Shown here: piece after piece, positions 2,910 through 30,659 of the stretch
Layout: each line of letters opens with the position of its first letter
Numbering within the stretch: position 1 is the stretch's first letter
Source: a virus
Virus record (IMG/VR): IMGVR_UViG_3300006923_000043
Span: 1 to 43,781 of that record
Length of the DNA: 43,781 bases
Direction: 5' to 3' (one strand)
Notes under the pieces: generated by a model
Databases searched by the model: none
Told to the model about the DNA's origin: nothing
Seen by the model: only the letters and a program-made list of their open reading frames with translations
Made by a program: the position numbers and the translations under genes

Positions 2910-5900
2910 GTGGCTATTAAAGCAGGTCTAAGTCCGTTTGCGGCGTCATCATTCGAGGTATCGAGTAACCCGTTCCAAGCGTTTAAGCTGCCTACTAATA
3001 AGTCATATAGTATGCCCAAGCTGGACGCAGTTATAAAGGGTACACTTGGACAGCCAACTGTTGCTGACTCGTTAGCACAGAGTAGAGGCCCATCCTCTGC
3101 GCTTGCACAAGCGTATGAAAATGCAGAGGGTCAAATCTTTGTTAATGGTTTAATGTTTGATGCAGATGACCATGGTAAGATGCTTGAGTCCGAGCAGTAC
3201 CTTAACGCCCCAGAAGTTAATACCCCACCGCCTGGCCAAGGGTGGCAGACATTAGACCGTAGTGCTTATCAGGCTGAGATTGATAGCATTAAAGACCCGT
3301 CGTTGGGGACACTCGCTAAGAAAAACTTCGGTATCGGTGTTGATAACCTACAACTACTTGGTGGTTATGGGCTTGAACTTATGGGTGCTACTGAGACTGG
3401 GCGCTCTGTTCAAGAACAACAGATTGAAGACCTAGCGAAGAACGACCCATACCAACGTGAGTTTTCTGAAGATGTTAAGTCTGTTGAAACAGGTATAGAT
3501 TGGTTCGTGGCGAACCTAGCCCAACAAGGGCCGAACATGATTGAGTCATTAGCCACGTTTGTACTTGGTTATGTAGGTGGTGGTGGTCAATTCACTGGAC
3601 TTGGTTCAGGCATCACAGCAGTAGCAGGCAAGGCATCATTTAAGAAAGCACTTAAGAAAGCTATTAAGAATAGGATGAAAGCCAAGGAGAAGGGTGAGGG
3701 CTTTAAATCCTTGAGTGCAGCAGACCAGAAGATTCTTAGGCAGACCTCGGGTATATCCGCAGTGCTTGCAAATAACTATGCGATTGGTGCATCGGATATA
3801 TTTGGTGAGGTTAAAGATACAGACCCAAACAACGCTAGATTAAAAGCATTCTTCGGTGCAATACCATACACACTATTAGAGACAGCTCCAGAAGCTTTAC
3901 TTGCATCACGCTTATTAGGCGGTATTAAGAGAGGTAAAGGTGGTATCGCTCGTAGGTTTGGTACAGGCGCAGGTGTCGGTGCTGTAGCTGAGGGTTCAAC
4001 TGAGGCAGGGCAAGAAGCATTACTTATGGGTCTTAACCCAGAGGCTAGCATTGATACACCAGAGGGTAAGAAGCGATTATTAAATGCGTTTGCCGCAGGT
4101 GCAGGTGTCGGCTCTCCTATCGGTGGTCTTGCAAACTTATCTGGTAGAAAGCCTAGTAAAGTAGACCTAAGTGGTAATGAAGAAGTAGACCTAGTTGCAG
4201 AGAAAACTAAGTTTTTAGATGAGCCCGTTGGGGGTGAACAAGTCGACCTCGATGGTACTGACGTACCACAACCTACAACTGACATCGATGCGCGTGCTGA
4301 GTTAGAAGCCATGATTGCAACTAATAATGAGTTGCTTAAGACGGTAACAAACAATGCAGAGCGTGATGAACTGATTGGTAAGAACGAGGCACTACAAGAA
4401 GAGATTAATGCTATTGACTCTGCTGCTATTATGCAGGCTGATGAGGTGGCGAACGCTGAGCAGGACAACGCGTTTCCAGATGTATGGCAGCAACAAGCAG
4501 CTGAAGACCCACGTTCCGACTCAACTGCCCCTGTGTTTGATGTGGTTGGTGAAGGCCAGGCTGAGTTATTCCCAGACGCTGAGGTACAACCTACAGTTGA
4601 GCAAGGGTTAGGGGCAACTGATGAGGCTTTACAGACCCAGCAAAGGCAAGGGTTAAAAGGGATAAACCAGCGTGACAGAGAGGTTGAAGTTAGGGAGAAC
4701 CCACTGGTTACTCCAGAGTATACTGCTGAGCAGCTTGAACAAGCTGAGATACAACGCCGTAGAGAGATTGCACAGAGGCAAGAGCAGAATGAACTACAGC
4801 GTCAGCGAATTGTACTAAGGAACGCTGAGATACAACGTCGTGAAGAAGAAGCAAGACAAGCACAATCAGATGAGGCTCGTCGTGAGAGAGCCAACGCTAT
4901 GCTTGAAATCATCCGACAGCGTGCTGAGACCCAACGTGCTGAAGCACAGCAGGCAGCTGAGCGTAGCACAGAAGTGGCAGCGATGACTAAGAAAGAGCGA
5001 GCGGCAGCAGATAAGGCTGCGCGTAAAGCGAATGAAGAGCGCTCACAGCAAGAGTACAACAAAGGTATCCCTGAGCAAGAAGAAATAGTTGAGGCAGTTG
5101 AGTCATCTGAAGAAACTAAGACTGAAGCAGAGAAAGCGTGGATTGAGTTACGCCCTAAGAATGCAGAGAACCTAGACTATGCTGATATACCCGACGACAT
5201 GCGTAAGCATTGGGAAGCCATGGTTGATAGGGGTCAGGTTAATAAGACTAACGCTAAACTCCTAGCTAAGATGGCTAAGGCTGCGAATGCTGGTAAGAAA
5301 GTAAACGAGCTAGCTAAGAAGACTGTTAAGAAAGTTAAGAAGGCTGTTGATGAGAACAAGATTGCAGCAGTGGGTGCAGTGAGTGGTGGCAAACCTAAGG
5401 TTAAGAAACAAAAGCCAAGGGATGAGGATGAAGAAGAAGTTGTAGCTCCTAAAAAAGTTGAGCTTAAGAAGAAGCCAGCTAAGAAAGTTGAGCTTAAGAA
5501 GTCGAAGTCGAAGGATAAACCAAAGCCTAAAGTTGTTGCTCCTAAGAAGAAGCCAGCTGAGAAGAAAGTGGTTGACACCCGTACTGCTAGACAGAAGTCA
5601 GTGGACACTGCCAATAAAGCTGACCCTATTAAGAAGAAGCAGAAGCTAAAGAGTAAGCAAGCCATCGGTGCTATGTATGCTAGAGTTAGACCAGAGGGTA
5701 GCGAGGTGCGTTACTCCAACTTAGACGATGCAACACGTAAAGAGTTTAACCAAGCTTACCTAGATGGTAAGTTAACTGAAGAACTTATAAACGATATTGA
5801 TAAACGTGGTACTAAAGCAATAGAATCAGCTAAGGCGATGGCTGCAGCAGAGGCTAAAGATAAGGCTAACTCTGAAGCAGTTAAGAAAGCAGAGCAGGAT

Positions 5901-8900
5901 GCAGTCAAAGAAGCTGCTAGGCTTAAGGATGAAGTTGAGAGAGTATGGTTGAGTCAGCAGACTCCATACCTTGAGTTCATCGATGTATCATTCGCTGACT
6001 TCACTAAGACTGGTAGGCAAAAGTTTGAGAACAAAATAAAAACTGGTGAGGTAACTAGAGAGGGGCAGAAAGAGAAAGCTGTTGATGACTTACTACTTAA
6101 CCAAGGTAAATTACCTAGAGCCATTACTAAAGCTATGCGTTCAGTAAACTCCCCGCTGTTTAAAGATGCTATGCGTGATGTGGCATACCTTACATATATT
6201 AAGAATGCTGGTAAGAAGAATGACATCTTAAAAGGCCCAGAGTTTATTGACTACATGCTTAACAACCTAAAGGTAGCACAAGTTGAACGCGATATCGTGG
6301 CTGACGCACTGCGCGAAGTTATGATGGATAACCCTATTGAAGGCACTCCTGTTGCTGAGCATCCTATTGCTAAAGTTGTACCACTTACTGCTAAGCAAAC
6401 TAGCGAAGTAGAGAAAACCTGGGGTATGGATAAACCTAAGCAGGCTAGAGCTAAGGTAGAGGAGGTCGAGGTAACAACCCCCGAGACTCTGACCAACCGT
6501 TTAGATAGGCTTAAGCTCAGCGGTGCTAATAGAAGAAATGATGCATCAGTGACAGAGATTGAGGGTTTATATAACCAGCTGACTGCTAAAGAACTACGTA
6601 ATACCAAGTGGCGTGACCATAATATTAAAGACTGGTTTGCAGACGGTAAGTTAAAACTTAACCAACGTTCATTCACTAACGCAGAAGGACAAACTACGCA
6701 ACGCTTCGCACCTACTACTGCTGAAGTTGGTATTAAGAAAGATGAAACCACTTACGCTGACAAACTTAAAGCTGTTGCAGCTAAGCCTAACAAGACAGCC
6801 CAGATGGCTGAGCGTAAGAAGCAAGGGTTAACACAGAGTCTCGCAGATATCCTTGAAGAAGCAGCACAGATAGCAGAGCAAGAAGATATAGCGAAGGCGG
6901 CAACAGAGTCACGTACTAGACAAGCAGATGAGTTTGGTTTATTAGACCAGTGGGGTACTAACGAAGATGATGACGTTATGTTCTTCGGTGAGGATGGTAA
7001 TCCGCTCTATGCTAATGTTGGTGTAGGGCAAGTTGAAGTGATAGCTATTAACTTTATCAACAGTTTAAAGACCACGCTTAAGCCTGCTATCAAGGTATAC
7101 CACGACACTGCTGCGTTTAAGAAACAGAACAAAACTCTATTCGATAAAGCTAAAGCAACTGGTAAGTTTGATGAGAGCACTAATGTTATGGCATTCCATA
7201 TGGGTACTGATGTAGTCCTGTTCAGTGGAAACATTAAAACTGAGAAGCAAGTTAAGACAATTCTAGCTCATGAAATCTTAGGTCACCATGGTCTCCGCAC
7301 CGTTGTCCCTAAAGCGAAACTTAAGAAACTACTAGATAGTATCTATAACGCAGATGCTAACATCCGAAACATAGTTGACCACCAAGTTGATATCCACGAT
7401 GCTGATAAGTATGTAGCGATTGAAGAAGCCATTGCTGATAAGGCAATGATACTAGACACATCTCTACTTAATAGAGTGTGGACAATGATTAAGAACGCTC
7501 TTAATAAAGTCGGGCTTAAGTTTGGTGATGAGATGTCACGATACTGGGTAGGTAATATCCGCCGCTTTATACGCTATGGTAAGGGTATCGGTACATTCGA
7601 CGTTAATGATATTAGTCAAGCACTATTAGATATGCGTGAACGTGGTAACAGTATCCGCTTTACAGCACAAGCTAACAACGCTAACCTAGGTAGTGACTTC
7701 ATAGCGATGAACGCTCAGAATAAGATTGATACTATAACCGGTGGCTTAGGTGGCATTAAAGATTACATCCAGAGTAATGGTGTTCAAACTATGCTTAGGA
7801 AAGCAGGTGGCGTACAGTCAGCAGTAGGTAGTGTATTCGAAGCACTGCAAACTCTTAACCATAAAGCTACTCGTAGTGAAGGACTAACAGATTTATATGG
7901 TTTCTTTGTGGCGGTATCCAACGCTTCTAAAGATTACCTTAACCACTACCAGTTAAAAACTAAGACGCAGTACGGCGCCAACACTTGGCTTAAGCCTTAT
8001 GCTACTGCAGATGATAAGTTAAAAGCAGGTGAGATACTAGCATATACTGCTATCTATAAGAAGAACCAACTGTCTGAAACAGACTTAAATAAAATCCCAG
8101 ACCTTGTTATAACTGATGAAGAAGGGAATGTAACAGTTAATGAGGACGCATTTAAACGAGCATCAGAGTTCGGTGCTATATCACTAGCTGACTTACGCAA
8201 AGGTATTAAGGTAGGTGAAGATGGTTCGATATGGGGTACGAAAGCAACAGCACCTTGGCTACATGATGAGTCATTTACTGAAGACCATGTTATTTGGAAG
8301 ATGTATCAAGAGAACCGTAGTGCTACTGACCAGGCTACAGTTGACGTATTAGTTGCTGATGTGCGTAGTGCATTCACAGAGCGTGTTGCTTACATCGATG
8401 ACCTACGCAAACAACGTGGTGGTGCAGGTGTACATATAGACAGTACAGATATAGAGTTTATCCATAAGGTGATGAATGAGTATTACGACATTCGAGTTGA
8501 GGGTTCTATCCTTGATGATGAGGATACGTACAGGCTATCAGATGAATCAAAGGATAAAGCTGAAGAGTTTTTATATGCAATCCAACGTAGCCTATATGAG
8601 CCGAAGAAGTTTAATGACCTTAAGCAGTCAGTAGAGCATGGTACTGGTGAGCATGGTAAGTTGTTCAAGGGGCGAACAGATATCCTTGAGCGTGTACAAG
8701 CACTACGCGATAAGAAACTTTCGAAAGCACAAGCCGAAGAAATCCAACATACAATCCAGACTTTATTCACAGTTAGTAACCAGATTGCTAACGCTCAGAT
8801 TGGTGCTAAGAGTACCATCATGGGTTCATATGTTCAGTTGGTTCGTGATGCGAAGTATCAAGTTAGAGTACAGGCGTACTTATATGACAAAGGAAAGCGT

Positions 8901-11276
8901 GGCGCTCCGATAGCATTAGATGAAGGCTTACAAGCACAGATGCCATACTACCAAGTTGACTCTACTCAGCAGGCGGCAGAGATTGTAGACTATTTAGATA
9001 GCACCTTAGGTAAGCATAAAGGTATTAAAGTTAAAGACCGAGATGGACATGAGCGATATGTGGAGTTCGTAGCCGAACGAGGTACTGCTGCTAAGCAGGC
9101 TCCAACTGCTGGTTCAGCATCATACAGGGACATCGCAGGTCTATTACTTAGATTAGATATTAACCTAACCCCCCGCCAACAAGAGCGGGTGGTTACTGCA
9201 ACATCACGTTACGAGTCACAAGCTCGTAAGCATTTGATGAGAACAGGTAACCCAGGTTGGGACAAGAATGTACTGAAACACATCGCATCTTATTTAGAAA
9301 CTAGAGCACACGTTGCTGCTAAGAGTGAGTATCGCTACGCTATTGATAGACTAATGGCTAACGACAGTAAGTGGCGTGGTGATAAACCAACACTTAAGCG
9401 TTTAGCTAAAGAGGTAAGTGAAGCGAAGAATGAAGAAGCTAAGTTTATTGCTAAGCAACGCTTTGACACATATGCATATATGTACCGACACTCTGCACCT
9501 ATAACTGGTAGTGGTATAGAAACCATCGTAGTAGATGGTGAAAACATTGAGTTAAAACTTGAAGGTCGTGGACAAGTTTACCGTGACGAAGGGCTGAAAC
9601 TACTAGCATGGTATGACCAGACCAGAAACATCGTGACAAGTACAGAGGATTTATTATCTGGTAAGGTTGGCTCGCAGCTGAAACTTGCAACTGTAATTAT
9701 GCAGTTAGGTATGAGTTTCGCTACAGCTGCAGTGAACTTAACTTCTATCCCCCTACTTACCATCCCGAACCTCGCAACTTACAATGACAAGCGTGGCTTC
9801 GGTGGAGGGTTTGGTTTCTCCAAGGCTGCTAAGGCAACTGGTGTAGCAATAGCTAATGTTAAGAACCCTAAGTTCGGTGAGACCGAGTTCCTATATGACA
9901 TGGTTAAGGACTGGGAAAAGACTAACGGTGATAATAAGTACAACGAATATGGACTAACAAAAGATGAAGCTGAGTTTATGCTATATGAAACTGAGCGAGG
10001 AACCATGGCTCCTGCACAGATGAATGCTCTACTAGGTTCATCGCGTGGTGGTGTACAGAGTGCTAAGGCTATCAAGGCAATTACAGCATGGATGTATATG
10101 TTCTCACAAACAGAGCAACTTAACAGACGTGTATCTGGATTAGCAGCATATCGATTAGAGCGAGATAGATATACAGCAGCAAACCCTAACGCTACCAAAC
10201 AAGAGATTGATGCCTACGCTAAGGACAAGGCAGGGCAATTTGTATATGATAGCCAGGGTAACTATGATATGTACAATAGACCAGAGATTGCACGTGGTAA
10301 CTTATTCCAGTACCCTATGATGTACAAGCAGTTCACTCTATCTGCCATCAAGCTATTTGCTCAGATGGATAAGAAGGGTAAGATTTACTCTATGGGTTTA
10401 CTGTTCTTAGTTGCGGGCCTAAAAGGTATGCCTTTCGCTGATGATATCATGGACTTACTAGATACACTAGCCCAGTCCTTTGGTATCAAGATGCCAACAG
10501 TCGAGAAGGCAGCACTAGAAATTGTCGAGGACATAGCCCCCGGCTTTGGTCCGTTGTTTATGAGAGGTGTGGTTGATAGGTCATTTGGTGGAACAGTATC
10601 GACTAGACTAGGCTTTGGTGATTTATTCCCACTTACTGGTTTGTTCAAAGCAGGCTCAGACCCATGGCGTGAAACAGAGAATGCCTTCGGCCCAGTATGG
10701 ACAACAGCAAGTGGTATTGTAGGCACAGCAGGACAGCTGAGTAAGTATGGGTTAGAAGCATTAGGGTTAAGGTCTGGTCATACGGATATGAAGACCATCT
10801 TAAGGGAGTCGCCTATCACTGCAGTACGCGCAATTACAGATGGATACACATTCCATAATGACGGTATGATTACTAATGCTCAAGGTAAAGTAGTGTCACG
10901 AGATGTGACAGCGTGGACAGCGTTTACAAGGATGCTAGGTTTCTACCCAGCAGTTGCAACAGCAGAGAATGATATTGTTAGGATGTCTAAACAGTCAGCA
11001 GACTACGCAAAAGATATACGCGCTGAGTTCCGTAATGCTTATATTAAAGCGAAGATTGTTGGTGATATGGATACTATGAATCAGATTGTACAGAATGTAC
11101 GAGAGTGGAATGAGGCTGCCCAAGGCTCTGAGTTCTACATTAGGAGTTTCCGTAAGTCTGCAAATAGAGCATACAGAGAATGGAACAAGACAACCTCAGA
11201 GAGGTATCTCAAGTCTGCACCTAAGAGTATCAGACAAGAGACTAACTGGTTAATGGACGTATTTGCTAACGACTAA
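2910..11276 (+). CDS. giant polyvalent virion protein with zincin-like motif, 2788 aa
   Basis: Starts at GTG 2910 behind a G-rich ribosome site (taggggggtagcta). Visible regions in order: a Gly/Ala-rich hydrophobic stretch near residues 210-245 and another near 345-410; a Gln/Arg/Glu-rich helical segment at about 604-727; a Lys/Pro-rich low-complexity linker at about 777-917; a metallopeptidase-like motif HEILGHHGLR at 1454-1463 (HExxxH with a GLR tail) followed by EEAIAD at 1505-1510, which could give the third metal ligand; hydrophobic segments near 2255-2288 and 2490-2520; and a charged helical C-terminus. Such very long multi-domain phage proteins (large polyvalent proteins, DarB-like or PLxRFG-type) are thought to be packaged and injected with the DNA. 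It occupies the T7 gp16-like position. Zinc binding and peptidase activity are inferred. Its stop overlaps the convergent primase-helicase stop by 4 bases. Confidence 0.8.
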   Translation: MAIKAGLSPFAASSFEVSSNPFQAFKLPTNKSYSMPKLDAVIKGTLGQPTVADSLAQSRGPSSALAQAYENAEGQIFVNGLMFDADDHGKMLESEQYLNAPEVNTPPPGQGWQTLDRSAYQAEIDSIKDPSLGTLAKKNFGIGVDNLQLLGGYGLELMGATETGRSVQEQQIEDLAKNDPYQREFSEDVKSVETGIDWFVANLAQQGPNMIESLATFVLGYVGGGGQFTGLGSGITAVAGKASFKKALKKAIKNRMKAKEKGEGFKSLSAADQKILRQTSGISAVLANNYAIGASDIFGEVKDTDPNNARLKAFFGAIPYTLLETAPEALLASRLLGGIKRGKGGIARRFGTGAGVGAVAEGSTEAGQEALLMGLNPEASIDTPEGKKRLLNAFAAGAGVGSPIGGLANLSGRKPSKVDLSGNEEVDLVAEKTKFLDEPVGGEQVDLDGTDVPQPTTDIDARAELEAMIATNNELLKTVTNNAERDELIGKNEALQEEINAIDSAAIMQADEVANAEQDNAFPDVWQQQAAEDPRSDSTAPVFDVVGEGQAELFPDAEVQPTVEQGLGATDEALQTQQRQGLKGINQRDREVEVRENPLVTPEYTAEQLEQAEIQRRREIAQRQEQNELQRQRIVLRNAEIQRREEEARQAQSDEARRERANAMLEIIRQRAETQRAEAQQAAERSTEVAAMTKKERAAADKAARKANEERSQQEYNKGIPEQEEIVEAVESSEETKTEAEKAWIELRPKNAENLDYADIPDDMRKHWEAMVDRGQVNKTNAKLLAKMAKAANAGKKVNELAKKTVKKVKKAVDENKIAAVGAVSGGKPKVKKQKPRDEDEEEVVAPKKVELKKKPAKKVELKKSKSKDKPKPKVVAPKKKPAEKKVVDTRTARQKSVDTANKADPIKKKQKLKSKQAIGAMYARVRPEGSEVRYSNLDDATRKEFNQAYLDGKLTEELINDIDKRGTKAIESAKAMAAAEAKDKANSEAVKKAEQDAVKEAARLKDEVERVWLSQQTPYLEFIDVSFADFTKTGRQKFENKIKTGEVTREGQKEKAVDDLLLNQGKLPRAITKAMRSVNSPLFKDAMRDVAYLTYIKNAGKKNDILKGPEFIDYMLNNLKVAQVERDIVADALREVMMDNPIEGTPVAEHPIAKVVPLTAKQTSEVEKTWGMDKPKQARAKVEEVEVTTPETLTNRLDRLKLSGANRRNDASVTEIEGLYNQLTAKELRNTKWRDHNIKDWFADGKLKLNQRSFTNAEGQTTQRFAPTTAEVGIKKDETTYADKLKAVAAKPNKTAQMAERKKQGLTQSLADILEEAAQIAEQEDIAKAATESRTRQADEFGLLDQWGTNEDDDVMFFGEDGNPLYANVGVGQVEVIAINFINSLKTTLKPAIKVYHDTAAFKKQNKTLFDKAKATGKFDESTNVMAFHMGTDVVLFSGNIKTEKQVKTILAHEILGHHGLRTVVPKAKLKKLLDSIYNADANIRNIVDHQVDIHDADKYVAIEEAIADKAMILDTSLLNRVWTMIKNALNKVGLKFGDEMSRYWVGNIRRFIRYGKGIGTFDVNDISQALLDMRERGNSIRFTAQANNANLGSDFIAMNAQNKIDTITGGLGGIKDYIQSNGVQTMLRKAGGVQSAVGSVFEALQTLNHKATRSEGLTDLYGFFVAVSNASKDYLNHYQLKTKTQYGANTWLKPYATADDKLKAGEILAYTAIYKKNQLSETDLNKIPDLVITDEEGNVTVNEDAFKRASEFGAISLADLRKGIKVGEDGSIWGTKATAPWLHDESFTEDHVIWKMYQENRSATDQATVDVLVADVRSAFTERVAYIDDLRKQRGGAGVHIDSTDIEFIHKVMNEYYDIRVEGSILDDEDTYRLSDESKDKAEEFLYAIQRSLYEPKKFNDLKQSVEHGTGEHGKLFKGRTDILERVQALRDKKLSKAQAEEIQHTIQTLFTVSNQIANAQIGAKSTIMGSYVQLVRDAKYQVRVQAYLYDKGKRGAPIALDEGLQAQMPYYQVDSTQQAAEIVDYLDSTLGKHKGIKVKDRDGHERYVEFVAERGTAAKQAPTAGSASYRDIAGLLLRLDINLTPRQQERVVTATSRYESQARKHLMRTGNPGWDKNVLKHIASYLETRAHVAAKSEYRYAIDRLMANDSKWRGDKPTLKRLAKEVSEAKNEEAKFIAKQRFDTYAYMYRHSAPITGSGIETIVVDGENIELKLEGRGQVYRDEGLKLLAWYDQTRNIVTSTEDLLSGKVGSQLKLATVIMQLGMSFATAAVNLTSIPLLTIPNLATYNDKRGFGGGFGFSKAAKATGVAIANVKNPKFGETEFLYDMVKDWEKTNGDNKYNEYGLTKDEAEFMLYETERGTMAPAQMNALLGSSRGGVQSAKAIKAITAWMYMFSQTEQLNRRVSGLAAYRLERDRYTAANPNATKQEIDAYAKDKAGQFVYDSQGNYDMYNRPEIARGNLFQYPMMYKQFTLSAIKLFAQMDKKGKIYSMGLLFLVAGLKGMPFADDIMDLLDTLAQSFGIKMPTVEKAALEIVEDIAPGFGPLFMRGVVDRSFGGTVSTRLGFGDLFPLTGLFKAGSDPWRETENAFGPVWTTASGIVGTAGQLSKYGLEALGLRSGHTDMKTILRESPITAVRAITDGYTFHNDGMITNAQGKVVSRDVTAWTAFTRMLGFYPAVATAENDIVRMSKQSADYAKDIRAEFRNAYIKAKIVGDMDTMNQIVQNVREWNEAAQGSEFYIRSFRKSANRAYREWNKTTSERYLKSAPKSIRQETNWLMDVFAND

Positions 11277-14119
11277 TCAACCATCTGTAACTGCCCTTGA
11301 AGTAAATCTTCAGCGGCTACATCAGCATCATCAAGTATGCCTTGTAGTCTAGGGTGGTTAAGGTTAACACCAACAACATAAGATTGACCTAATTTAATCG
11401 GTGTACTCTTACCTAAAAAACACTTCTTGGATTTAGGTGTTGCATCAATATGCTCAGTCTTTAACTCACCGCAGAAAGACTTGTAGTCATGGCCTTGCAT
11501 TGATAACCATTTACGGAAGTGGGTACGGTCTAACATAAGCGTTCCACTACTGAAGACATCAGTCATTGTCTTACGGAAGACATCGAACCTAACACGTATC
11601 TCTCCACGAGGTAAGCGTTGGAAGTCAACCACTGGCTTCTGCCCTGCTGTGTGCATAACAGTGACAGCAACATCAGCGAAGTCGTTAAGGTATGCAGCAA
11701 GGATATCGAATGAGTCCATCTTACTCTCAGCAGCAACAGTACGGATAGCACCAATCTGATTTAGTACCCACTCAGTCCCCTTCGTATAGTCGTAATCAAT
11801 CAAGCCCCAATCACTAGCAAGTTTAGATGCTAGGTCTGATAGAATGATGGCTTGTTCCCAGTAGCGTTCTTCACCACTGAACTCAGCGTCATACCTTTTG
11901 TGGAAATTCTCTGTTACTTCTGCAATCATTGCAGCTATATCATCAGCACCTATTTCTAACAACTTGTTTATGAATGTGTGGCCGACATGGCCGTAGTTAT
12001 TTGTAACAAAGTTATAGAGGTTTCGACCTGCCGTACTATTCTTAGTAAACAGCTCATGTGCAGGCACAGTTACCTCTAACAAACGTGCCATCTGTGCATC
12101 AGTATCTAACCCAGATGCTATCAGTTTAGATTGCATTGACTTGTTTGTAGATACAACAACTGGCGTTGCCCAAGTCTTAGCATCTCGCTCAACAGCAGTA
12201 CGACTAAGCCTAGCCTTATCCCTACCTTGACTCACCCAGTAACAGAAGTCACCTACCTCTTTATCTTGCATCATAGTTACTTCATCAATGGTCATCGGTA
12301 AGTGGGCATACAAACCCATACGGTTGAACAGTGTGTTCTGTGTGAACTTCGCAGCGAAGTGCAACTTGTCTGGGTTACCATAGATGGATTGTATCCAGTA
12401 TTGAGCTAGTGTTTTACCTCCACCTGTTGGCCCATATAATGAAACTGTTAGTCCTTTCAAGCCAGTGAAGTTGAATAGTGGTGCAGAAAACCCAACACCT
12501 AAAGCAAACATATGACTTGGCATATGTGCTTTCTCTAGCATGTTGGTCATCTTAGTCCACGCTTCACTGCTTCCTTTCTTGCCATACATATCACCGCTAA
12601 CTGAATTGGTTGCGGCAGATAATGTAACTTGTTCTTCTTTAACACTGCCATCACCGACCTTACTTATGACAGTATCTCCTATGACAAAGTGCGTGTTGTT
12701 TTCTTTCCAACCCATGGTTGAATAGAGGTTAGTCATGGTACGCATCTGCCTTAACTCTTCCATGTAGCTTCGTAACATAAGTTGAAAATACTCCGTTTGT
12801 CGTTTACTAATTAACACTATACCTTGGTCTGCAATAGCAGTGGGAAATTCTCTACTCCCATCAGTAAGGTATGCTTGTCTTAATTTAAGTTCTGTCCACC
12901 CAATATGAGGTCGCTTCCAGTGGTAGCGTACCACTTCATAATCAAGGTGGTCATCACGTCCATACCCAACTGGGTATATATCAAACTTACAAACATCGAT
13001 ATCAGTATCATCAATAGTCATCTTAATACCTTGAGCAGTTCGCTTGAACGGTTTCGGGATAGGTACTAAGTTCGCTACTTTATCTGGTGCTTCAGTGGTG
13101 ATTGCGACTTCTTGGTATTGGATACCCAGTCTTGCAGGTGAGCCTACCTTGCCTGCATATTTACACCCTCTACATCCATTTGGTCTATCAGATTTAAACT
13201 TGTCACAAGTTGTTGGGCCAGTAGCATTGTCTTTCCACTGGATAACTTTATCCCTTGTTACTGACTCAGAGTAAGCATCATGCCCCTCACTCCACTTGAT
13301 TGCTGTTTCTTCTGGGTCTACACAGAATGCAGCAACTCCGATAAGGCTATACCATAGTGGCTCGGGTACATCCTTCTGGTTCTTAACTGCCCACTCAATC
13401 TGCTGACACTTGCTTGCAACTACAGTGCCGACAGCAGGTGGATACTCTTGGGTTGCTGCAAGATTACCTAACAACGAACTCTCACGTGGTTGTCGACTAT
13501 TAGGGCCCGGGCTATACTGTACGTAGTTTGATAATACATCTGAAAGAACTTCAGGTGTAACAGGCTCAGCATCCATTAACAACTTTACCTCATTCCCATT
13601 CTTCGGGTTATGAGTTCCGACTGGTCGTAATACCAGTGCGCTGTTAGTTGTAAGACCTGCGTCTATCTCGAACTGTTTCTCTGCCGCTGCTAGTTTCATA
13701 GCACTAGCGAGTGGCTTCCATTTATGTGGTTCTAGTTCTCTGGTTAATACCCAGTAAACATGCAGTCCGTTGCCAGAGAATACTACCATAGGTTTAGGTA
13801 GTTTCATTTCTTCAAGGAACTTACCCAATGCTTTTAATCCTTCCTTCCAGTTTGGGTATGGTTTATTTTCACCACAGTCTACATCTAATGCAACAACTTT
13901 GGTTGCTCTGACATTATCCTGCTTCCTATTGCCTTTCGTTTTGAAGGCTGATATTGCGTAGTAGGTATTGTTTTTAGTTTGGTCTGACCTAATACAGACC
14001 TTTGCTAGTTCGTCTACACTATCGAAGAACCCTTGTCTATTACCATCTTTGTTGATGACAGTAGTGACATAGAAGCCCTCAGTAGGTAGAACGCGTTGTA
14101 AAAATTCCAACGTGTTCAT
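11273..14119 (-). CDS. primase-helicase: PrimPol-type N-terminus plus DUF927-like ATPase, 948 aa
   Basis: Synthesises primers and unwinds DNA at the phage fork (inferred from domains). The N-terminal part shows archaeo-eukaryotic primase signatures: VVALDVDCG near residue 72 (metal-binding acids), SGNGLHVYW near 115 (motif II with the conserved His) and RPVGTHNPKNG near 165. A cysteine group CDKFKSDRPNGCRGC near residues 305-320 may bind zinc. The C-terminal half is a DUF927-like SF3/AAA helicase, with Walker A GPTGGGKT near 563-570, Walker B MTIDEV near 612, and VVVSTNKS as a likely sensor. Start ATG 14119 follows GAGGAGGACAC. It is the last gene of the leftward operon and lies behind a hairpin terminator at 14134-14156, so its expression may be attenuated. 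The domain order is typical of phage and plasmid primase-helicases. Confidence 0.9.
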   Translation of the reverse strand: MNTLEFLQRVLPTEGFYVTTVINKDGNRQGFFDSVDELAKVCIRSDQTKNNTYYAISAFKTKGNRKQDNVRATKVVALDVDCGENKPYPNWKEGLKALGKFLEEMKLPKPMVVFSGNGLHVYWVLTRELEPHKWKPLASAMKLAAAEKQFEIDAGLTTNSALVLRPVGTHNPKNGNEVKLLMDAEPVTPEVLSDVLSNYVQYSPGPNSRQPRESSLLGNLAATQEYPPAVGTVVASKCQQIEWAVKNQKDVPEPLWYSLIGVAAFCVDPEETAIKWSEGHDAYSESVTRDKVIQWKDNATGPTTCDKFKSDRPNGCRGCKYAGKVGSPARLGIQYQEVAITTEAPDKVANLVPIPKPFKRTAQGIKMTIDDTDIDVCKFDIYPVGYGRDDHLDYEVVRYHWKRPHIGWTELKLRQAYLTDGSREFPTAIADQGIVLISKRQTEYFQLMLRSYMEELRQMRTMTNLYSTMGWKENNTHFVIGDTVISKVGDGSVKEEQVTLSAATNSVSGDMYGKKGSSEAWTKMTNMLEKAHMPSHMFALGVGFSAPLFNFTGLKGLTVSLYGPTGGGKTLAQYWIQSIYGNPDKLHFAAKFTQNTLFNRMGLYAHLPMTIDEVTMMQDKEVGDFCYWVSQGRDKARLSRTAVERDAKTWATPVVVSTNKSMQSKLIASGLDTDAQMARLLEVTVPAHELFTKNSTAGRNLYNFVTNNYGHVGHTFINKLLEIGADDIAAMIAEVTENFHKRYDAEFSGEERYWEQAIILSDLASKLASDWGLIDYDYTKGTEWVLNQIGAIRTVAAESKMDSFDILAAYLNDFADVAVTVMHTAGQKPVVDFQRLPRGEIRVRFDVFRKTMTDVFSSGTLMLDRTHFRKWLSMQGHDYKSFCGELKTEHIDATPKSKKCFLGKSTPIKLGQSYVVGVNLNHPRLQGILDDADVAAEDLLQGQLQMVD

Positions 14120-14165: not shown

Positions 14166-14453
14166 TTAATGATACTCCTCTAAATGTTTAAGAAGTCGCT
14201 TTTTTCTATCCTTTGGTTCAAGAACAATAACATCGGGTGATGGCCACCCTTTGTCCTGCATAACCAACAGTAGTTTTCGCAAGGTATCACGTAACTTATT
14301 ATCGTTGTGTCTACGGATGGTTGCACCCTTCTTCCAACTATGATAAGTCATGCGGGATACTCCCACCACTGACGCCATGTCAGTGATAGTAAGCATCATA
14401 TGCTTGCGAAGCGACTCCACTTTAGAAAAATCAAGTGGGGTCTGTTTAGTCAT
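14166..14453 (-). CDS. small helix-turn-helix DNA-binding protein, 95 aa
   Basis: The central segment MLTITDMASVVGVSRMTYHS fits a Cro/CI-type helix-turn-helix (helix, turn at GVS, recognition helix with MTYHSWK), followed by a basic C-terminal half. It is probably a transcriptional regulator or a replication-associated DNA-binding protein. I chose ATG 14453 because AGGAG lies 9 bases upstream of it; the alternative ATG at 14462 directly abuts that AGGAG. With this start the gene overlaps the end of the SSB-like gene by 8 bases (ATGACTAA), implying translational coupling. It is a candidate binder of the repeats at 29051-29758 or of the dyad at 31049-31066, but nothing in the sequence proves this. 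Confidence 0.8.
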   Translation of the reverse strand: MTKQTPLDFSKVESLRKHMMLTITDMASVVGVSRMTYHSWKKGATIRRHNDNKLRDTLRKLLLVMQDKGWPSPDVIVLEPKDRKKRLLKHLEEYH

Positions 14454-15396
14454 CAGCAACATCTCCTACAAGAGCAGCGATTTCATCAGCCAAGTTACCT
14501 GTCGCAGTGTCTGCAACTGGTGCAGCATCTGGTTCAGCAGCAGGTTTCTTTGCTTTAGGTTTCGCTTTAGCCTTAGGCTTAGGTGCTTCAGCAGGTGCGG
14601 CTTTACCAAATCCTTTTACAGCAGGTTCTTCCTTTGCTTCAACCACTGGTGCAGGTTTTGTTTCAACTTTAGGTACAGCAGGTGTGTCCATTTCTTTCTC
14701 ACCTGTTATCTTTAACACTTGGTCAGTACCAAACAGTTTATCTACTGCGGCTTGAGCTGCTTCGTCGATGAAGCCACCAAACCCGAACGCTAACTTAGGG
14801 TATGACGCATCAGTATCGAAAGACAACGTGGTCTTAACAATCTCTGGTGGGATACCTCTTGTAGATAGTTCTTTCTGGTAGGCGTTCAACCCTTTCAATG
14901 CACCTGGAGTTACTTGTAGTAGGTACACTGCACCACCTGCATCATCAGCAGCAACCACTGCTAATCGTTTCTGGTCTGCACAGGCTTTAATCTGCTGACC
15001 TTGTGGTGTTAACTTAGAACCCCAAGCATTCTGAGGACATGAGGCACACAAGTCATTCTGTGGGTTGGTACTATCAGCATGTGGGCCGACACCAGTCAAC
15101 GAGAAGCAGTCTGGTGCTGAAGGCTCTGAGTCTGGAGTCCATGCTTTCTCATACCATGTCTTAGATAATCTAGGGTTAGCACCCACAACGATTACATCAA
15201 TCTTGGTTGAGTCAAGTACAGTCTCATCACCTCCGTCCACAATACGGAAGCGACTGCCTTTGATGGATATACGTGGGAAGCCATCGCCTCCTGTTGCTAG
15301 TCCACCTGTTAACGATTGCGCCAATGCTGATGGCGTGCCTACTTTGCCTGCTAAGTGAGCAGGAACTTGGATATTACTGGGAACAATGTTTGACAT
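14446..15396 (-). CDS. putative single-stranded DNA-binding protein, 316 aa
   Basis: Probable ssDNA-binding or recombination-mediator protein, inferred from architecture rather than a sure family match. The N-terminal two thirds look like a compact beta-rich domain with a cysteine cluster near residues 98-138 (CFSLTG, LCASCPQN, then IKACADQ) that may bind zinc. Then comes a Pro/Lys/Ala-rich linker (about 235-295) and a short acidic tail ending VGDVADD. A folded domain, disordered linker and acidic tail is the layout of phage and bacterial SSBs, where the tail recruits replication partners. It lies among helicase, nuclease and primase genes. The start follows AGGAGAGAAATA. The Ala/Lys/Pro linker is encoded by imperfect repeats. 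An RNA-binding or structural role cannot be excluded. Confidence 0.55.
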   Translation of the reverse strand: MSNIVPSNIQVPAHLAGKVGTPSALAQSLTGGLATGGDGFPRISIKGSRFRIVDGGDETVLDSTKIDVIVVGANPRLSKTWYEKAWTPDSEPSAPDCFSLTGVGPHADSTNPQNDLCASCPQNAWGSKLTPQGQQIKACADQKRLAVVAADDAGGAVYLLQVTPGALKGLNAYQKELSTRGIPPEIVKTTLSFDTDASYPKLAFGFGGFIDEAAQAAVDKLFGTDQVLKITGEKEMDTPAVPKVETKPAPVVEAKEEPAVKGFGKAAPAEAPKPKAKAKPKAKKPAAEPDAAPVADTATGNLADEIAALVGDVADD

Positions 15397-18694: not shown

Positions 18695-20557
18695 CTATTT
18701 TGCTTCACTATAATTATCACCAAGGTCTGCTTCACAAGCCACTGGTAAATCCTTCGCCCAACTTGGGGGCTTAGACATTTCATCTATCATAAATGCTAGT
18801 GCTTCATCTGCTTCTTCTTCCTTAACCACGATGATAATCTCATCATGAACTTGGAAAGACACATGGTATCGCTGTCCTATACGCACCATCTGCTCTGCAA
18901 CTACATTCCTAGCAAGGGCTTGGACTACATTCTCCACTACCTTACCACCGTATATCCGTGTCCAGTTATTACCTGCAACACCTTCACCACTCGAATGCTT
19001 TCTAAACACACGAGAGTCAGCAAGATAGGAGAACCCTCCCGAACCTGCTCTTAATGCAGGGTAATGAATACGCAAACCGTTCGGCATCAATATACCTTCG
19101 GAGTCGTATGACAGAATGTCGTTAATCTGCCCACTACCACCTGCTAACATGCCTGTAAGAACCGTGCCACATCTATTCCAGAGTGCGACAATCCTATGGT
19201 TCTTTTGTCTGTATAAATTTACTATTCGTTGTGCTTCAAATTCGTCGACATCAACGGACAGTCCACCCATACCTAGTGCTAAGGTATCTTTAAACTTAAC
19301 ATGACCCATGCCATAACCAAGACCAAGTATACATGTTTTACCAACGAAGCGTTTAACTTTATCAGTCTTTTTTACTTCATATCCATACACATCAGAAGCG
19401 AACTCACTATACACATCACGCCCCTCCCTAAAGGCTTCAAGTAAATCCTCTTGCCCTGCTACATACGCTGTCATTCGTGCCTCAATTTGTGATGAGTCAC
19501 AGGCAATCATCTTATACCCTAGTGGTACAGTCAGAGCCTCACGAATAGCACCGTTACGAGGTAAGTTCTGTAGGTTTAACTTGTCCCCACCAGAGAACCT
19601 ACCAGTATGAGCACCATAATACTTGAGCATAATAGGCAAGTATCCACGCTTGGAAGTTTCAATCAACCGTTGCGTTCTGGTTTCTTCTATGGTAGACTTG
19701 GTACCAAGTCTCGCCTTAACGAGGCTACGCACTTGAGGGTTGTCGTGTTCCAGTAAGTTTAAGAATGCTTTATCAGTCTTAGCAAATGCAAAAGCAACCT
19801 TACCTGTTCGTAGACTAGTCTTAGTTGGAATCTCTACACCTAATGACTCAAGCAACTTAGCAAACATATCATTACTCATCAGTACCTTCTTTATCTGTGC
19901 CTCTGTGAATTGACCCATTGATAGGTCATTGATTAAGTCTGTCTTGGTTTGCTTAACTTTAACAAGGTGTTGTTCCAGTACACTAGTGTCAAGTACCACT
20001 GTTGGCTCTGTGTACATACGCATAGTCTGGTCGATAATCATTAGTTCATGTGGTGGAAAGCCCTGTTTTAGTTTGTTAAATAACTTGTAGGTTAACTCAA
20101 CATCTTGGATACAGTAATCAGCGAAGTCTTTCATCTCGCTCTCACTAAAGTCTAAGCGTCGTTTACCTACTGTGTTCTCCACCTCTGCACCTTTCTCACC
20201 TATATTATAGTAATCTGCTAAGGCTTTCAAGGAACTACCCTCCGCCATCATATGCCTAGGTTTAGCCATGCACATAGTATCGAACCAAAACTTTGGTTTG
20301 ATGTTATACAACCATGATAAGATTGCACCATCAAAGTAAGTGTTATGGCAGAGGATAGCCTTGTCCGTATAGTCGAGGCTATTTAAGAACCCACCAACAT
20401 CTTCCCCACTGTACCAATCAGTGGGGTTATCATTAACTTTAATACCTACACCTATGACTTCAAAGTCTGCACTGCGTACATACTCCTCTGTTGTCATCTT
20501 AGATAGAGAGAACTTCTTATCCCAATAGGTTTCGAAGTCGATGGTTACTATGTCCAT
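18695..20557 (-). CDS. DNA polymerase, family A, with 3'-5' exonuclease domain, 620 aa
   Basis: The phage replicative polymerase. The exonuclease domain is intact: Exo I DFETYWD (D7, E9), Exo II region LCHNTYFDGAIL near 100-112, Exo III region YCIQDVELTYK near 150. The polymerase domain has motif A IACDSSQIEAR around residue 354, motif B KRFVGKTCILGLGYGMG around 395-412 and motif C QVHDE around 570. Length is normal for phage family A enzymes that lack a 5'-3' exonuclease domain. The start overlaps the preceding gene stop by one base (TAATG). Neighbours are an HTH-containing small protein upstream and nuclease/helicase genes downstream. Nothing suggests loss of activity. Confidence 0.97.
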   Translation of the reverse strand: MDIVTIDFETYWDKKFSLSKMTTEEYVRSADFEVIGVGIKVNDNPTDWYSGEDVGGFLNSLDYTDKAILCHNTYFDGAILSWLYNIKPKFWFDTMCMAKPRHMMAEGSSLKALADYYNIGEKGAEVENTVGKRRLDFSESEMKDFADYCIQDVELTYKLFNKLKQGFPPHELMIIDQTMRMYTEPTVVLDTSVLEQHLVKVKQTKTDLINDLSMGQFTEAQIKKVLMSNDMFAKLLESLGVEIPTKTSLRTGKVAFAFAKTDKAFLNLLEHDNPQVRSLVKARLGTKSTIEETRTQRLIETSKRGYLPIMLKYYGAHTGRFSGGDKLNLQNLPRNGAIREALTVPLGYKMIACDSSQIEARMTAYVAGQEDLLEAFREGRDVYSEFASDVYGYEVKKTDKVKRFVGKTCILGLGYGMGHVKFKDTLALGMGGLSVDVDEFEAQRIVNLYRQKNHRIVALWNRCGTVLTGMLAGGSGQINDILSYDSEGILMPNGLRIHYPALRAGSGGFSYLADSRVFRKHSSGEGVAGNNWTRIYGGKVVENVVQALARNVVAEQMVRIGQRYHVSFQVHDEIIIVVKEEEADEALAFMIDEMSKPPSWAKDLPVACEADLGDNYSEAK

Positions 20558-20916
20558 TACTTCTCCATCATTGGTTTGAGTAGACCATATAACTCCTTAG
20601 CTTCAGCCATACTCATGGTGAGTGTGCCTTCTGTCATCTCTATTTGTAGGCTCACCTTCATAGACTTTGTACCAACAACTTTCTGTTTGGTTGCCTTGCT
20701 TTTCTTACCAGATGCTTTCATTAAGGCATCAGTAATAGCATGCTTCATTGCATTATTGATTGGCTTCTGCTTAGGCTTAGTTAAACCTGCTGCAGACTTG
20801 GTTACGTACACATACTTCTGTCTAACACCTAACGCTTTAGCAACTTGTGCTGCAGTCTTGTTAGGGTTTGATTTAACATATGATATTATCTTTTCTTTCT
20901 TTGATGTTCCTTTCAT
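20557..20916 (-). CDS. small basic protein with N-terminal helix-turn-helix-like segment, 119 aa
   Basis: Residues 8-34 (IISYVKSNPNKTAAQVAKAL and onward) resemble a winged-helix/HTH segment of the kind that reads short DNA sites. A Lys-rich middle (about 45-85) follows, then a short C-terminal segment MSMAEAKELYGLLKPMMEK of helical type. The protein is strongly basic. It sits directly upstream of DNA polymerase with a one-base overlap, so a replication-linked DNA-binding role is reasonable, and it could recognise the origin-like repeats, but this is inference. The start follows AGGAGAGTAAAG. Confidence 0.75.
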   Translation of the reverse strand: MKGTSKKEKIISYVKSNPNKTAAQVAKALGVRQKYVYVTKSAAGLTKPKQKPINNAMKHAITDALMKASGKKSKATKQKVVGTKSMKVSLQIEMTEGTLTMSMAEAKELYGLLKPMMEK

Positions 20917-28545: not shown

Positions 28546-28845
28546 TTAACCAAGTACAGTCACAGTAGGACGAGATGAAGTAGCACCATCTTCCTTAGTT
28601 GGTAACATTGCAACATATGGTGAGTTACCACGACCACTTAGTAAGACTGGTGATAAGTCCTTCGCTTTAGTATCCGGAGTAAAGAAACTTAACTCAGCAT
28701 TATGTTGTTTAGCATAACCAACCATTGCTTTATGTAAGTCTGTTACATTCTCTTGGTTAAACTTACCAGATGCATTTGGTCTTACAGTGATTTTATTCTT
28801 AGTGTTTAAGATTACTTCTACGTTACCGCTATATATTCTAGCCAT
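28546..28845 (-). CDS. small protein A of a paralogous pair, 99 aa
   Basis: Starts behind AAGGAGAATATATC. The protein begins MARIYSGNVEVILNTKNKIT and has a C-terminal PYVAMLPTKEDGATSS. The product of 30074-30367 has the same plan (MSRIYEGMVSIVKNTKGEVA; RLTILPKQEKGASKSK) at nearly the same length, so the two are paralogues. Each lies downstream of its own copy of the same promoter and is closed by its own hairpin terminator. No known domain; the highly expressed, stand-alone setting suggests an early host-directed or DNA-binding protein. Confidence 0.8.
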   Translation of the reverse strand: MARIYSGNVEVILNTKNKITVRPNASGKFNQENVTDLHKAMVGYAKQHNAELSFFTPDTKAKDLSPVLLSGRGNSPYVAMLPTKEDGATSSRPTVTVLG

Positions 28846-28896
28846 GATATATTCTCCTTAAATGATGGGTATCAACCCTTATATTGTTTTTATTAA

Positions 28897-28927
28897 AGTG
28901 ATTAATAACACCATGTTACTAACCACT
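28897..28927 (-). other. leader hairpin in the early transcript
   Basis: In the transcript starting at P1, AGUGGUUAGUAACA pairs with UGUUAUUAAUCACU around a UGG loop: 14 consecutive pairs, two of them G-U. The G-U pairs exist only in the leftward RNA, so the structure is strand-specific. It sits about 50 bases before the ribosome site of the 99-residue gene. Confidence 0.6.
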
Positions 28928-28990
28928 GAAGTCTTTTTAATGAAGGTTAAGGAATTTAAAATAAAATCCCCAGCCCTCGACCTCGACAAA

Positions 28991-29019
28991 AGTCTGCCAC
29001 GCCGTCGCCGATTTGTCAA
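28991..29019 (-). promoter_or_regulatory. early promoter P1, leftward
   Basis: Minus strand TTGACA (29019-29014), 17 bases, then CAGACT (28996-28991), with TGG directly before the -10 box as an extended -10. The same -35, spacer length and TGGCAGAYT end occur in P2 and P3, while the spacer sequence here differs. It drives the 99-residue gene and possibly the replication operon by readthrough. Confidence 0.7.
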
Positions 29020-29050
29020 GTTTTGACCAGTACACAGAGAAAGTGGTCGG

Positions 29051-29758
29051 TGTAAAGTGTAAAGTTTAAAGGGCAATAGTAAGTAAAGTTATACCCAGTG
29101 TCTAATATAATGTGTAAAGTTATAGTAGTAATCGCGCGCGCGTAATTTAAATAGAGTGGCAAAAATCTAAAATAGATTGTAAAGTTACGTGGAATAATCC
29201 ATAAATAATCTACTTTGTGTGTAAAGTTATGGAAATAATCTATGTAAAGTTATGGAATGTATTAAAAAAATGTATCGCTGGAGGGTGCAGTACCATAGGG
29301 TTTGTGAAAAATAATCTATAAAATCTACTTTTTTTTCGGTAATGTGACGCTAAAAATATTATGTTATTGTCATTATGATACAAGTTACAAATTTTCGGGG
29401 CTTAACTAATAAATTGTTAGATTATATAGATTATTATATATGGACTTTTCAGATTGGTATTATGGATTTATGCTCTACAACCCGCATGGTATAAGGGTTT
29501 TCATTTGAAACTTTACACTTGTAAGGTGTAAAGTTCAGCCAATAATCTACCTAAAAATACTGCCAATATTAAGATTATCTTATATAGATTATTTGCAAAA
29601 CTTTACACGTTTTTTGTAGTAATATCAATGACTTACGAAATAATCTATTTTTTTTCTGTCGAAACTTTACTAGTAAAGTTAGGGGTATAGGTGTAAAGTT
29701 AGGGAAATGTAAAGTTAGATTGTAAAGTTAGCGTGGTCTAACCTCTTTAACTTTACAC
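29051..29758. repeat. iteron-like repeat field, candidate replication origin
   Basis: AT-rich, no credible gene. About 16 copies of GTAAAGTT(A/G) or close variants lie on both strands, for example at 29221-29229, 29244-29252, 29673-29681, 29693-29701, 29709-29717 and 29722-29730. Seven exact AATAATCTA copies are interspersed (29204, 29234, 29310, 29541 and 29639 forward; 29427 and 29585 reverse). Three sites join both motifs as GTAAAGTT-N5-AATAATCTA: 29221-29242, 29528-29549 and, reversed, 29585-29606. An 18-bp perfect palindrome of the first motif lies at 29663-29680 and a 10-bp inverted pair at 29509-29518/29526-29535. Such arrays are typical of replication origins or cooperative operator regions; which one applies here is inference. 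Confidence 0.7.
29133..29142. other. alternating CG tract
   Basis: Five consecutive CG steps inside an otherwise AT-rich stretch within the repeat field. It is self-complementary and of the type that can adopt left-handed DNA under supercoiling; function unknown. Confidence 0.5.
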
Positions 29759-29782
29759 TTTGTACTGAAGATGGTACTGTGG

Positions 29783-29824
29783 TATAACCCCCCGACGTAT
29801 GGCCGGGTTTGTTTAGAAATAAAA
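29783..29824. repeat. cassette boundary element E1
   Basis: Contains AACCCCCCGACGT followed about 20 bases later by TTTAGAAATAAA. Related elements lie at 30549-30590 and 30987-31017. E1 lies just to the right of the repeat field. Confidence 0.55.
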
Positions 29825-29863
29825 ACGTAGTTAACATAGGTTAACTTACTTTAGAGCAGACGT

Positions 29864-29889
29864 AAAAAAGCCCTGCTTTCGCAAGGCTC
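29864..29889 (-). terminator. hairpin terminator T2
   Basis: Minus strand AGCCTTGC-GAAA-GCAGGGCT with a GNRA tetraloop, followed by TTTTTT, 7 bases after the 42-residue gene's stop. Nearly the same hairpin recurs as T3. Confidence 0.85.
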
Positions 29890-29896
29890 TTAGTTG

Positions 29897-30025
29897 TTAC
29901 TTCTTGGTTAGTTTCTTGGCTTGTCTGAATCTATACAAATCAGTCTTGCTTTTGAACTCTTGTCTTATCCAGCGTTTGCCATCAATAGACTTTTCAAGTA
30001 GTATGTATTTACGTTCATTGTTCAT
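29897..30025 (-). CDS. 42-residue basic microprotein
   Basis: Starts at ATG 30025, 6 bases after AGGAG (AGGAGTTCACT), and ends with TAA just before terminator T2. The product begins MNNERKYILLEKSIDGKRWI and ends in a Lys/Arg-rich helix (RFRQAKKLTKK); about a third of residues are basic. The strong ribosome site, clean stop and terminator support it. It lies downstream of the 97-residue gene and is probably cotranscribed from P2. A nucleic-acid-binding or host-takeover role is possible. Confidence 0.75.
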   Translation of the reverse strand: MNNERKYILLEKSIDGKRWIRQEFKSKTDLYRFRQAKKLTKK

Positions 30026-30073: not shown

Positions 30074-30367
30074 TTAGGCTAGTTTTTCAATCTTACTCTT
30101 ACTAGCGCCCTTCTCTTGCTTAGGCAAGATGGTGAGTCTTGGGTTACCGTACCTATCAGCCATCAACACTGCATCAGTACCACCTTCAACTACGAAGTAA
30201 CTCCACTTGTGCACACTTGTATCCAGTTGGTCGGCTAGTTCTAGCATCTTAACTTTCAACGCCTCTGCGTTTTCGTTACTCCAGTCACCCTTATCATCTC
30301 TTTTAAGTGCAACTTCACCTTTGGTGTTTTTTACGATGGACACCATACCCTCATATATTCTACTCAT
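30074..30367 (-). CDS. small protein B of a paralogous pair, 97 aa
   Basis: Paralogue of the product of 28546-28845: same start pattern (M-x-RIY-x-G), same length, same C-terminal block PRLTILPKQEKGAS. The two share the overall plan but differ at most positions, so the duplication is old or each copy was acquired separately. Starts behind GGAGATATT. It is transcribed from promoter P2, whose leader contains a small GCAAC/GTTGC hairpin (30423-30436). Function unknown. Confidence 0.8.
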   Translation of the reverse strand: MSRIYEGMVSIVKNTKGEVALKRDDKGDWSNENAEALKVKMLELADQLDTSVHKWSYFVVEGGTDAVLMADRYGNPRLTILPKQEKGASKSKIEKLA

Positions 30368-30600: not shown

Positions 30601-30653
30601 AAAAGAAACCCTGCTTTCGCAGGGCTCTTGGTTGTGAGGGCATCTCTGCCCTC
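30601..30653 (-). terminator. hairpin terminator T3 with preceding hairpin
   Basis: Minus strand order: a 7-bp hairpin GAGGGCA/TGCCCTC (30636-30653), then GCCCTGC-GAAA-GCAGGGT followed by TTCTTTTC (30601-30627). It follows the 60-residue gene. The second hairpin is almost identical to T2. Confidence 0.85.
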
Positions 30654-30659
30654 GGGTTA

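Follow-up and report, generated by a model that had tools for sequence, protein, structure and literature searches.

A field of two short repeated words in the marine bacterial virus contig IMGVR_UViG_3300006923_000043 is probably the main replication origin of the phage, of the iteron type, opened and primed by a protein that joins a PrimPol to a DUF927 helicase. The contig is linear, and the whole stretch of DNA analysed (the window) comprises 43,781 bases. Copying most likely starts in this field, because two repeated words are packed into it and dozens of related viruses have a like stretch in the corresponding location. Among relatives, the position of the field is kept while the letters of its boxes drift, which supports the origin reading; so does the initiator-like helicase that the phage encodes in fusion with a PrimPol. 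A preliminary description had presented the region as a candidate new origin or regulatory array. The array is real and selected, and both the relatives and the initiator-like protein support an origin, a function that we infer; "new" was an overstatement, as origins built of short-repeat arrays and an AT-rich stretch are already known. If the reading is right, a widespread and mostly uncultivated clade of aquatic phages gains a testable origin, and a DUF927 helicase of the SaPI/SCCmec type becomes linked to a tailed-phage replisome with a PrimPol in the same chain.

Surroundings and composition of the repeat field

The longest gene-free gap of the window (28846-29896, 1,051 bp) contains the field. 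The leftward operon codes for a DUF927 protein, a helicase, nucleases, a family A DNA polymerase, an HNH protein and an AAA ATPase; large terminase, portal and capsid form the rightward side of the window, where rightward genes begin at about 30991. A location between the leftward replication operon and the rightward virion genes, as first proposed, holds only loosely: the immediate neighbors, g99 on the left and a 42-aa ORF and g97 on the right, are all leftward. Longer relatives keep the same gene order and carry extra sequence past both window ends, which makes it probable that the window is incomplete. A Paraglaciecola MAG contig carries one terminase relative, too little to settle the host of this phage. 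The features in and around the field are the following.

28546-28845, minus strand: g99, which opens the leftward operon, left of the field, paralogue of g97
29051-29758, both strands: AT-rich repeat field with 15 GTAAAGTT (A) and 7 AATAATCTA (B) boxes, recognized by counts against shuffles and by its place in relatives
29133-29142, no strand: CGCGCGCGCG stretch, GC-rich within the AT-rich field, conservation 0.77
29204-29251, plus strand: conserved block of a B box, A-N5-B (29221-29242) and, one base on, a further A box (29244-29251)
29310-29327, plus strand: B box, then ATAAAATCTA; one of the best-conserved blocks (0.99 for 29313-29327)
29417-29435, minus strand: AT-rich core of tandem 9-mers TAGATTATA-TAGATTATT, seen in the alignment, candidate melting region
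29528-29606: inverted pair of composites, A-N5-B at 29528-29549 (plus) and at 29585-29606 (minus)
29663-29680, no strand: 18-bp perfect palindrome AACTTTACTAGTAAAGTT, two A boxes arranged as AACTTTAC-TA-GTAAAGTT
29781-29802, plus strand: C6 element GGTATAACCCCCCGACGTATGG, right edge of the field and its most invariant part across the clade
29866-29891, minus strand: terminator-like hairpin with a T-run, for leftward transcripts, between the field and the g97 side (-16.5 kcal/mol, z -4.7)
29897-30025, minus strand: 42-aa ORF, right of the field, its DNA partly conserved in relatives
30074-30367, minus strand: g97, right of the field, paralogue of g99 (28% identical)

Within 29051-29758, the A box occurs in 15 exact copies (11 on the plus strand, 4 on the minus strand) and the B box in 7 (5 and 2), which bears out the earlier estimate of about 16 A-type and seven exact B motifs. 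These counts lie far above the chance level, taken from 2000 dinucleotide shuffles of the field (A mean 0.14, maximum 3; B mean 0.04, maximum 2), the comparison that the preliminary description had proposed. The rest of the 43,781 bases holds two copies of A and none of B, and the field is the most repeat-dense 700-bp segment of the whole stretch (score 346, median 13). Being almost confined to the field, the boxes are not like a genome-wide regulon. The three composites in which A and B are joined at a 5-base spacing are exact (29221-29242, 29528-29549 and, on the minus strand, 29585-29606), and such a set is unlikely if 15 A and 7 B boxes are placed at random: at least three same-strand pairs at gap 5 arise in 0.01% of trials (P 1e-4), and at least three in any gap/orientation class, with gaps of 0-20, in 0.37% (0.004). 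The palindrome at 29663-29680 is perfect, as had been claimed, and ten fields together contain 7 head-to-head A pairs separated by 2 bases.

A blastn search of the field against INPHARED phages gave no match. The exact composite is found at 39 viral loci, with dense arrays only in those of this clade; the loci outside it carry a single copy each, probably by chance in AT-rich DNA, and a motif common to many phages can be discarded.

Conservation in relatives and the C6 element

Relatives were taken as IMG/VR contigs with a related polymerase, terminase or ATPase. The close ones carry A and B boxes in the same location, flanked by the same genes, and conservation of the repeats, which had been named as a check, is thus what is found. 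In the alignment of the field with seven relatives, box identity to the window is 63.5%, vs. 49.4% for the surroundings. The best-conserved blocks are AATCTATAAAATCTA, GGTATAACCCCCCGA, AGATTATATAGATTA and AAATAATCTATGTAA; the AT-rich core reaches 0.97 over 29419-29433, and the CGCGCGCGCG block is present, with small changes, in 11 of the 11 aligned fields. Most of the wider terminase relatives with enough upstream sequence have an AT-rich repeat field some 2-4 kb upstream of the terminase (6 kb in L047). There the A box drifts to AACTTTACA, AACTTGACA or ACCTTACA, and the B box reads AATAATCTA, AACTATCTA or ACTAATCTA. Copy number differs between relatives and both orientations are used. No clear box appeared in the box scan of L041, L044-L046, L056 and L057, which are short contigs or have divergent fields.

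The 5-base spacing had been taken to mean that one protein or complex reads both halves. Among close relatives, A and B follow each other on the same strand at 4, 5 or 6 bases in 21 pairs and on opposite strands at those gaps in none; homologous positions are among these counts, which therefore do not represent independent events. Both composites of the inverted pair have a 4-base gap in L108 and L106, and B-N1-A pairs also recur in close relatives. In 27 more distant fields, no A-B gap dominates, and B-type 9-mers stand in tandem at 8-9 bp. The spacing rule is therefore real but local: a joint reading of both halves finds support in the closest relatives (4-6 bases, same strand), and a fixed 5-bp spacing as a rule of the clade is unsupported beyond them.

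The right edge of the field extends past the limits first drawn for it. The sequence CCCCCCGANNNATGG (29788-29802), part of C6, is conserved more than either box, and it or a close variant edges the fields of clade members on the right (for example at 7959 in L055, 8485 in L083 and 5214 in L099), always on the terminase-gene side. In a scan with the pattern AACCCCCCGANNNATGG, 52 of the 80 loci examined carry clade proteins, among the matches listed. Since a scan with C6 recovers the clade, and C6 is conserved above both boxes, the element serves as a signature of the clade; with one 17-base C6 pattern, many members could be picked out of 2.9 million viral contigs, which makes it a usable sequence tag. 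Loci picked by C6 and clade proteins, rather than by repeats, were compared over 900 bp on each side: among the matches listed, repeat density to the left of C6 exceeds all 100 shuffles in 36 of 36 loci, and to the right an equally good result (at most 1 of 100 shuffles) is reached in 11 of 36. Folding and the relatives do not support C6 as a conserved hairpin. A C6-like sequence, AACCCCCCGACNATGG, also lies inside the terminase coding sequence (TerL) of L054, L055, L086 and L102, probably a coding coincidence. Drifting boxes beside a fixed C6 would provide a natural series in which initiators can be matched to their sites.

Candidate initiator and comparison with known systems

The two candidates for reading the boxes are adjoining leftward genes.

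11273-14119, minus strand: PrimPol and DUF927 helicase fusion, 948 aa, candidate initiator and primase (Pfam, PDB profiles, fold)
14166-14462, minus strand: HTH-like protein, 98 aa, alternative candidate box reader, next to the PrimPol-helicase gene

The larger protein matches Pfam DUF927 (E 1e-27) and, below cut-off, NCBIfam Cch1. PDB profiles relate its helicase part to a SaPI protein (8tch, E 1.2e-9) and to SCCmec Cch (5dgk, E 4.5e-9); by these sequence matches, it is homologous to the SaPI Rep and SCCmec Cch helicases (DUF927/MCM-like). Residues ~1-200 adopt a PrimPol fold in Foldseek comparisons, with a TM, normalized by target, of 0.68 to 6zp9 (S-2L PrimPol) and 0.61 to 3h25 (RepB'). The AF2 model of the 948-aa chain is weak in the helicase and at the C-terminus; it places helices and strands at 858-931, and this part is too weak to serve as evidence for a DNA-binding domain.

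Two HTH proteins had been named earlier as possible readers. One, at 14166-14462, gives a weak HTH_3 match (E 5e-4, below Pfam's cut-off) and is kept in 7 of 7 large relatives; the other, at 20557-20916, gives no credible HTH match and occurs only in the closest relatives. The paralogues g97 and g99 are not present in all seven large relatives; members of their family occur more widely in the clade. Several large relatives keep the field with no orthologue found there, which argues against either as a universal box reader. For g99, comparison of an AF2 model (pLDDT 73) with the PDB gave nothing convincing among solved structures, and there is only one viral match.

In SaPIs, Rep recognizes an iteron origin via its C-terminal domain, the origin lies next to rep, and SaPIbov1 Rep has a relative in the DUF927 protein Cch; Cch2, which belongs to a different helicase family, depends on direct repeats for binding to its putative origin (PMC7581432). 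Like SaPIs, the phage has short repeats arrayed in noncoding DNA and a DUF927/Cch/Rep helicase. It differs in having two unrelated box families, a 700-bp field, an invariant C6 and a PrimPol fused to the helicase, whose gene is 15 kb away rather than beside the origin. SCCmec Cch supplies the solved homologue of the helicase part (5dgk), whereas the Cch2 system combines its other helicase family with three short iterons and a primase in a separate polymerase complex. The α protein of P4 and plasmid RSF1010 exemplify repeat-based origins with primase and helicase functions; α is a primase-helicase that binds origin repeats by a winged helix, then unwinds and primes (PMC4234260). Its primase is of the Toprim type, whereas the phage protein is PrimPol-like, with no winged helix shown. 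RSF1010 oriV has iterons and separate primase start sites, and its RepB' is the fold match to the PrimPol part; there, in contrast, three separate proteins (RepC, RepA, RepB') act and the ssi sites are stem-loops, whereas C6 is without a conserved hairpin. Initiation by a PrimPol at a short, defined template sequence has been demonstrated (PMC8718748).

The Pseudomonas phages KPP25 and Rollin share the DNA polymerase and carry, at a comparable position, a repeat field that is AT-richer, with less GC than their genomes. In KPP25, it occupies the gap between divergent operons, with the rightward replication genes next to it and the leftward terminase side close by. The repeat words (TGTTACGA/TCGTGACA and AAAAGGTAG) are unrelated to A and B, and CCCCCCGA has no match in the stretches of both genomes searched. 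These fields (KPP25 NC_024123 26219-26894; Rollin OR577172 1-700) look undescribed. The part of RHph_TM3_14A that was scanned holds no comparably strong field, so the architecture is common to some relatives and has not been seen in all. No phage origin with a DUF927 helicase was found in the literature covered, and as far as that coverage goes, the conservation across the clade alongside drifting boxes, the invariant C6 and the fused PrimPol-DUF927 pairing are new.

Initiation at the field and alternative readings

Short repeats clustered far above chance, as in iteron origins, are present in the field, and the conserved AT-rich tandem 9-mers at 29417-29435 are a candidate for the neighboring region that would unwind. 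Initiation could proceed as follows. The PrimPol-DUF927 helicase, perhaps joined by the HTH protein encoded next to it, would bind the boxes and assemble as rings; the bound initiator would melt the AT-rich 9-mer core; the helicase would be loaded, and the PrimPol would prime synthesis on the opened strands, C6 possibly acting as a fixed primer start or a strand-processing site. Forks would then exit both ways through mostly co-oriented genes. The cumulative GC skew is lowest at about 28.5 kb, a point in favor of an origin here that nevertheless coincides with, and is inseparable from, the change in gene direction. A more far-reaching version can be put forward tentatively: a three-part origin throughout the clade, with two drifting box families and an invariant C6, a single fused PrimPol-DUF927 initiator and CCCCCCGANNNATGG as the programmed primer start, the boxes co-evolving with their reader while the start stays fixed. 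Against an origin, the helicase gene ends 15 kb from the field whereas the SaPI origin adjoins rep, and an operator array would look much alike.

Such an array, in which a regulator like the 14166-14462 protein controls the leftward operon from g99, and perhaps the late switch, while the origin lies elsewhere, is an unlikely account of the field. The field does lie directly upstream of g99, its head-to-head A boxes resemble dimer sites, and the HTH protein is retained by all seven large relatives. However, 15 and 7 boxes over 700 bp are many for one promoter, other operons are without boxes, and the late genes start 1.2 kb past the right edge of the field. In tests that cover sigma-70-like promoters, no -10 hexamer stands at the right distance from the A boxes: read as -35 hexamers (TTTACA, with a -10 at 16-18 bp), they have a mean best match of 2.82/6 vs. 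2.95 at random positions, and the field contains 8 promoter-like sites, vs. 8.7 expected from shuffles.

The invariance of C6 and its constant orientation toward the terminase genes would suit a packaging site, with the terminase starting to cut or fill at the field or at C6. This is improbable: the terminase genes are 1.2-2.1 kb off with g97 between, and tandem AT-rich 9-mers and drifting boxes are unexpected at such a site. Contig ends near C6 start at different sequences, with no common end, which as weak evidence from contig ends also speaks against a fixed genome end at the field. The field might instead combine an origin with the operator of the leftward operon, as self-regulated plasmid origins do, a double role that fits its position upstream of g99 and its origin-like features; the absence of a promoter signal leaves this highly improbable. 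A structured RNA or other repeat element with no role in replication is scarcely credible, because even though the inverted composite pair can fold into a long hairpin (z -4.9), an Rfam search of the field matched no known RNA family, the boxes occur in both orientations and in varying numbers among relatives, and the bases between A and B in the inverted pair match imperfectly across the arms.

Two further observations concern the window outside the field. The rightward strand encodes a 2788-aa protein at 2910-11276, which has no credible Pfam match and whose conservation in relatives is only partial. Terminator-like hairpins occur on both strands at 30606-30654, in the second longest noncoding gap, which precedes the rightward genes.
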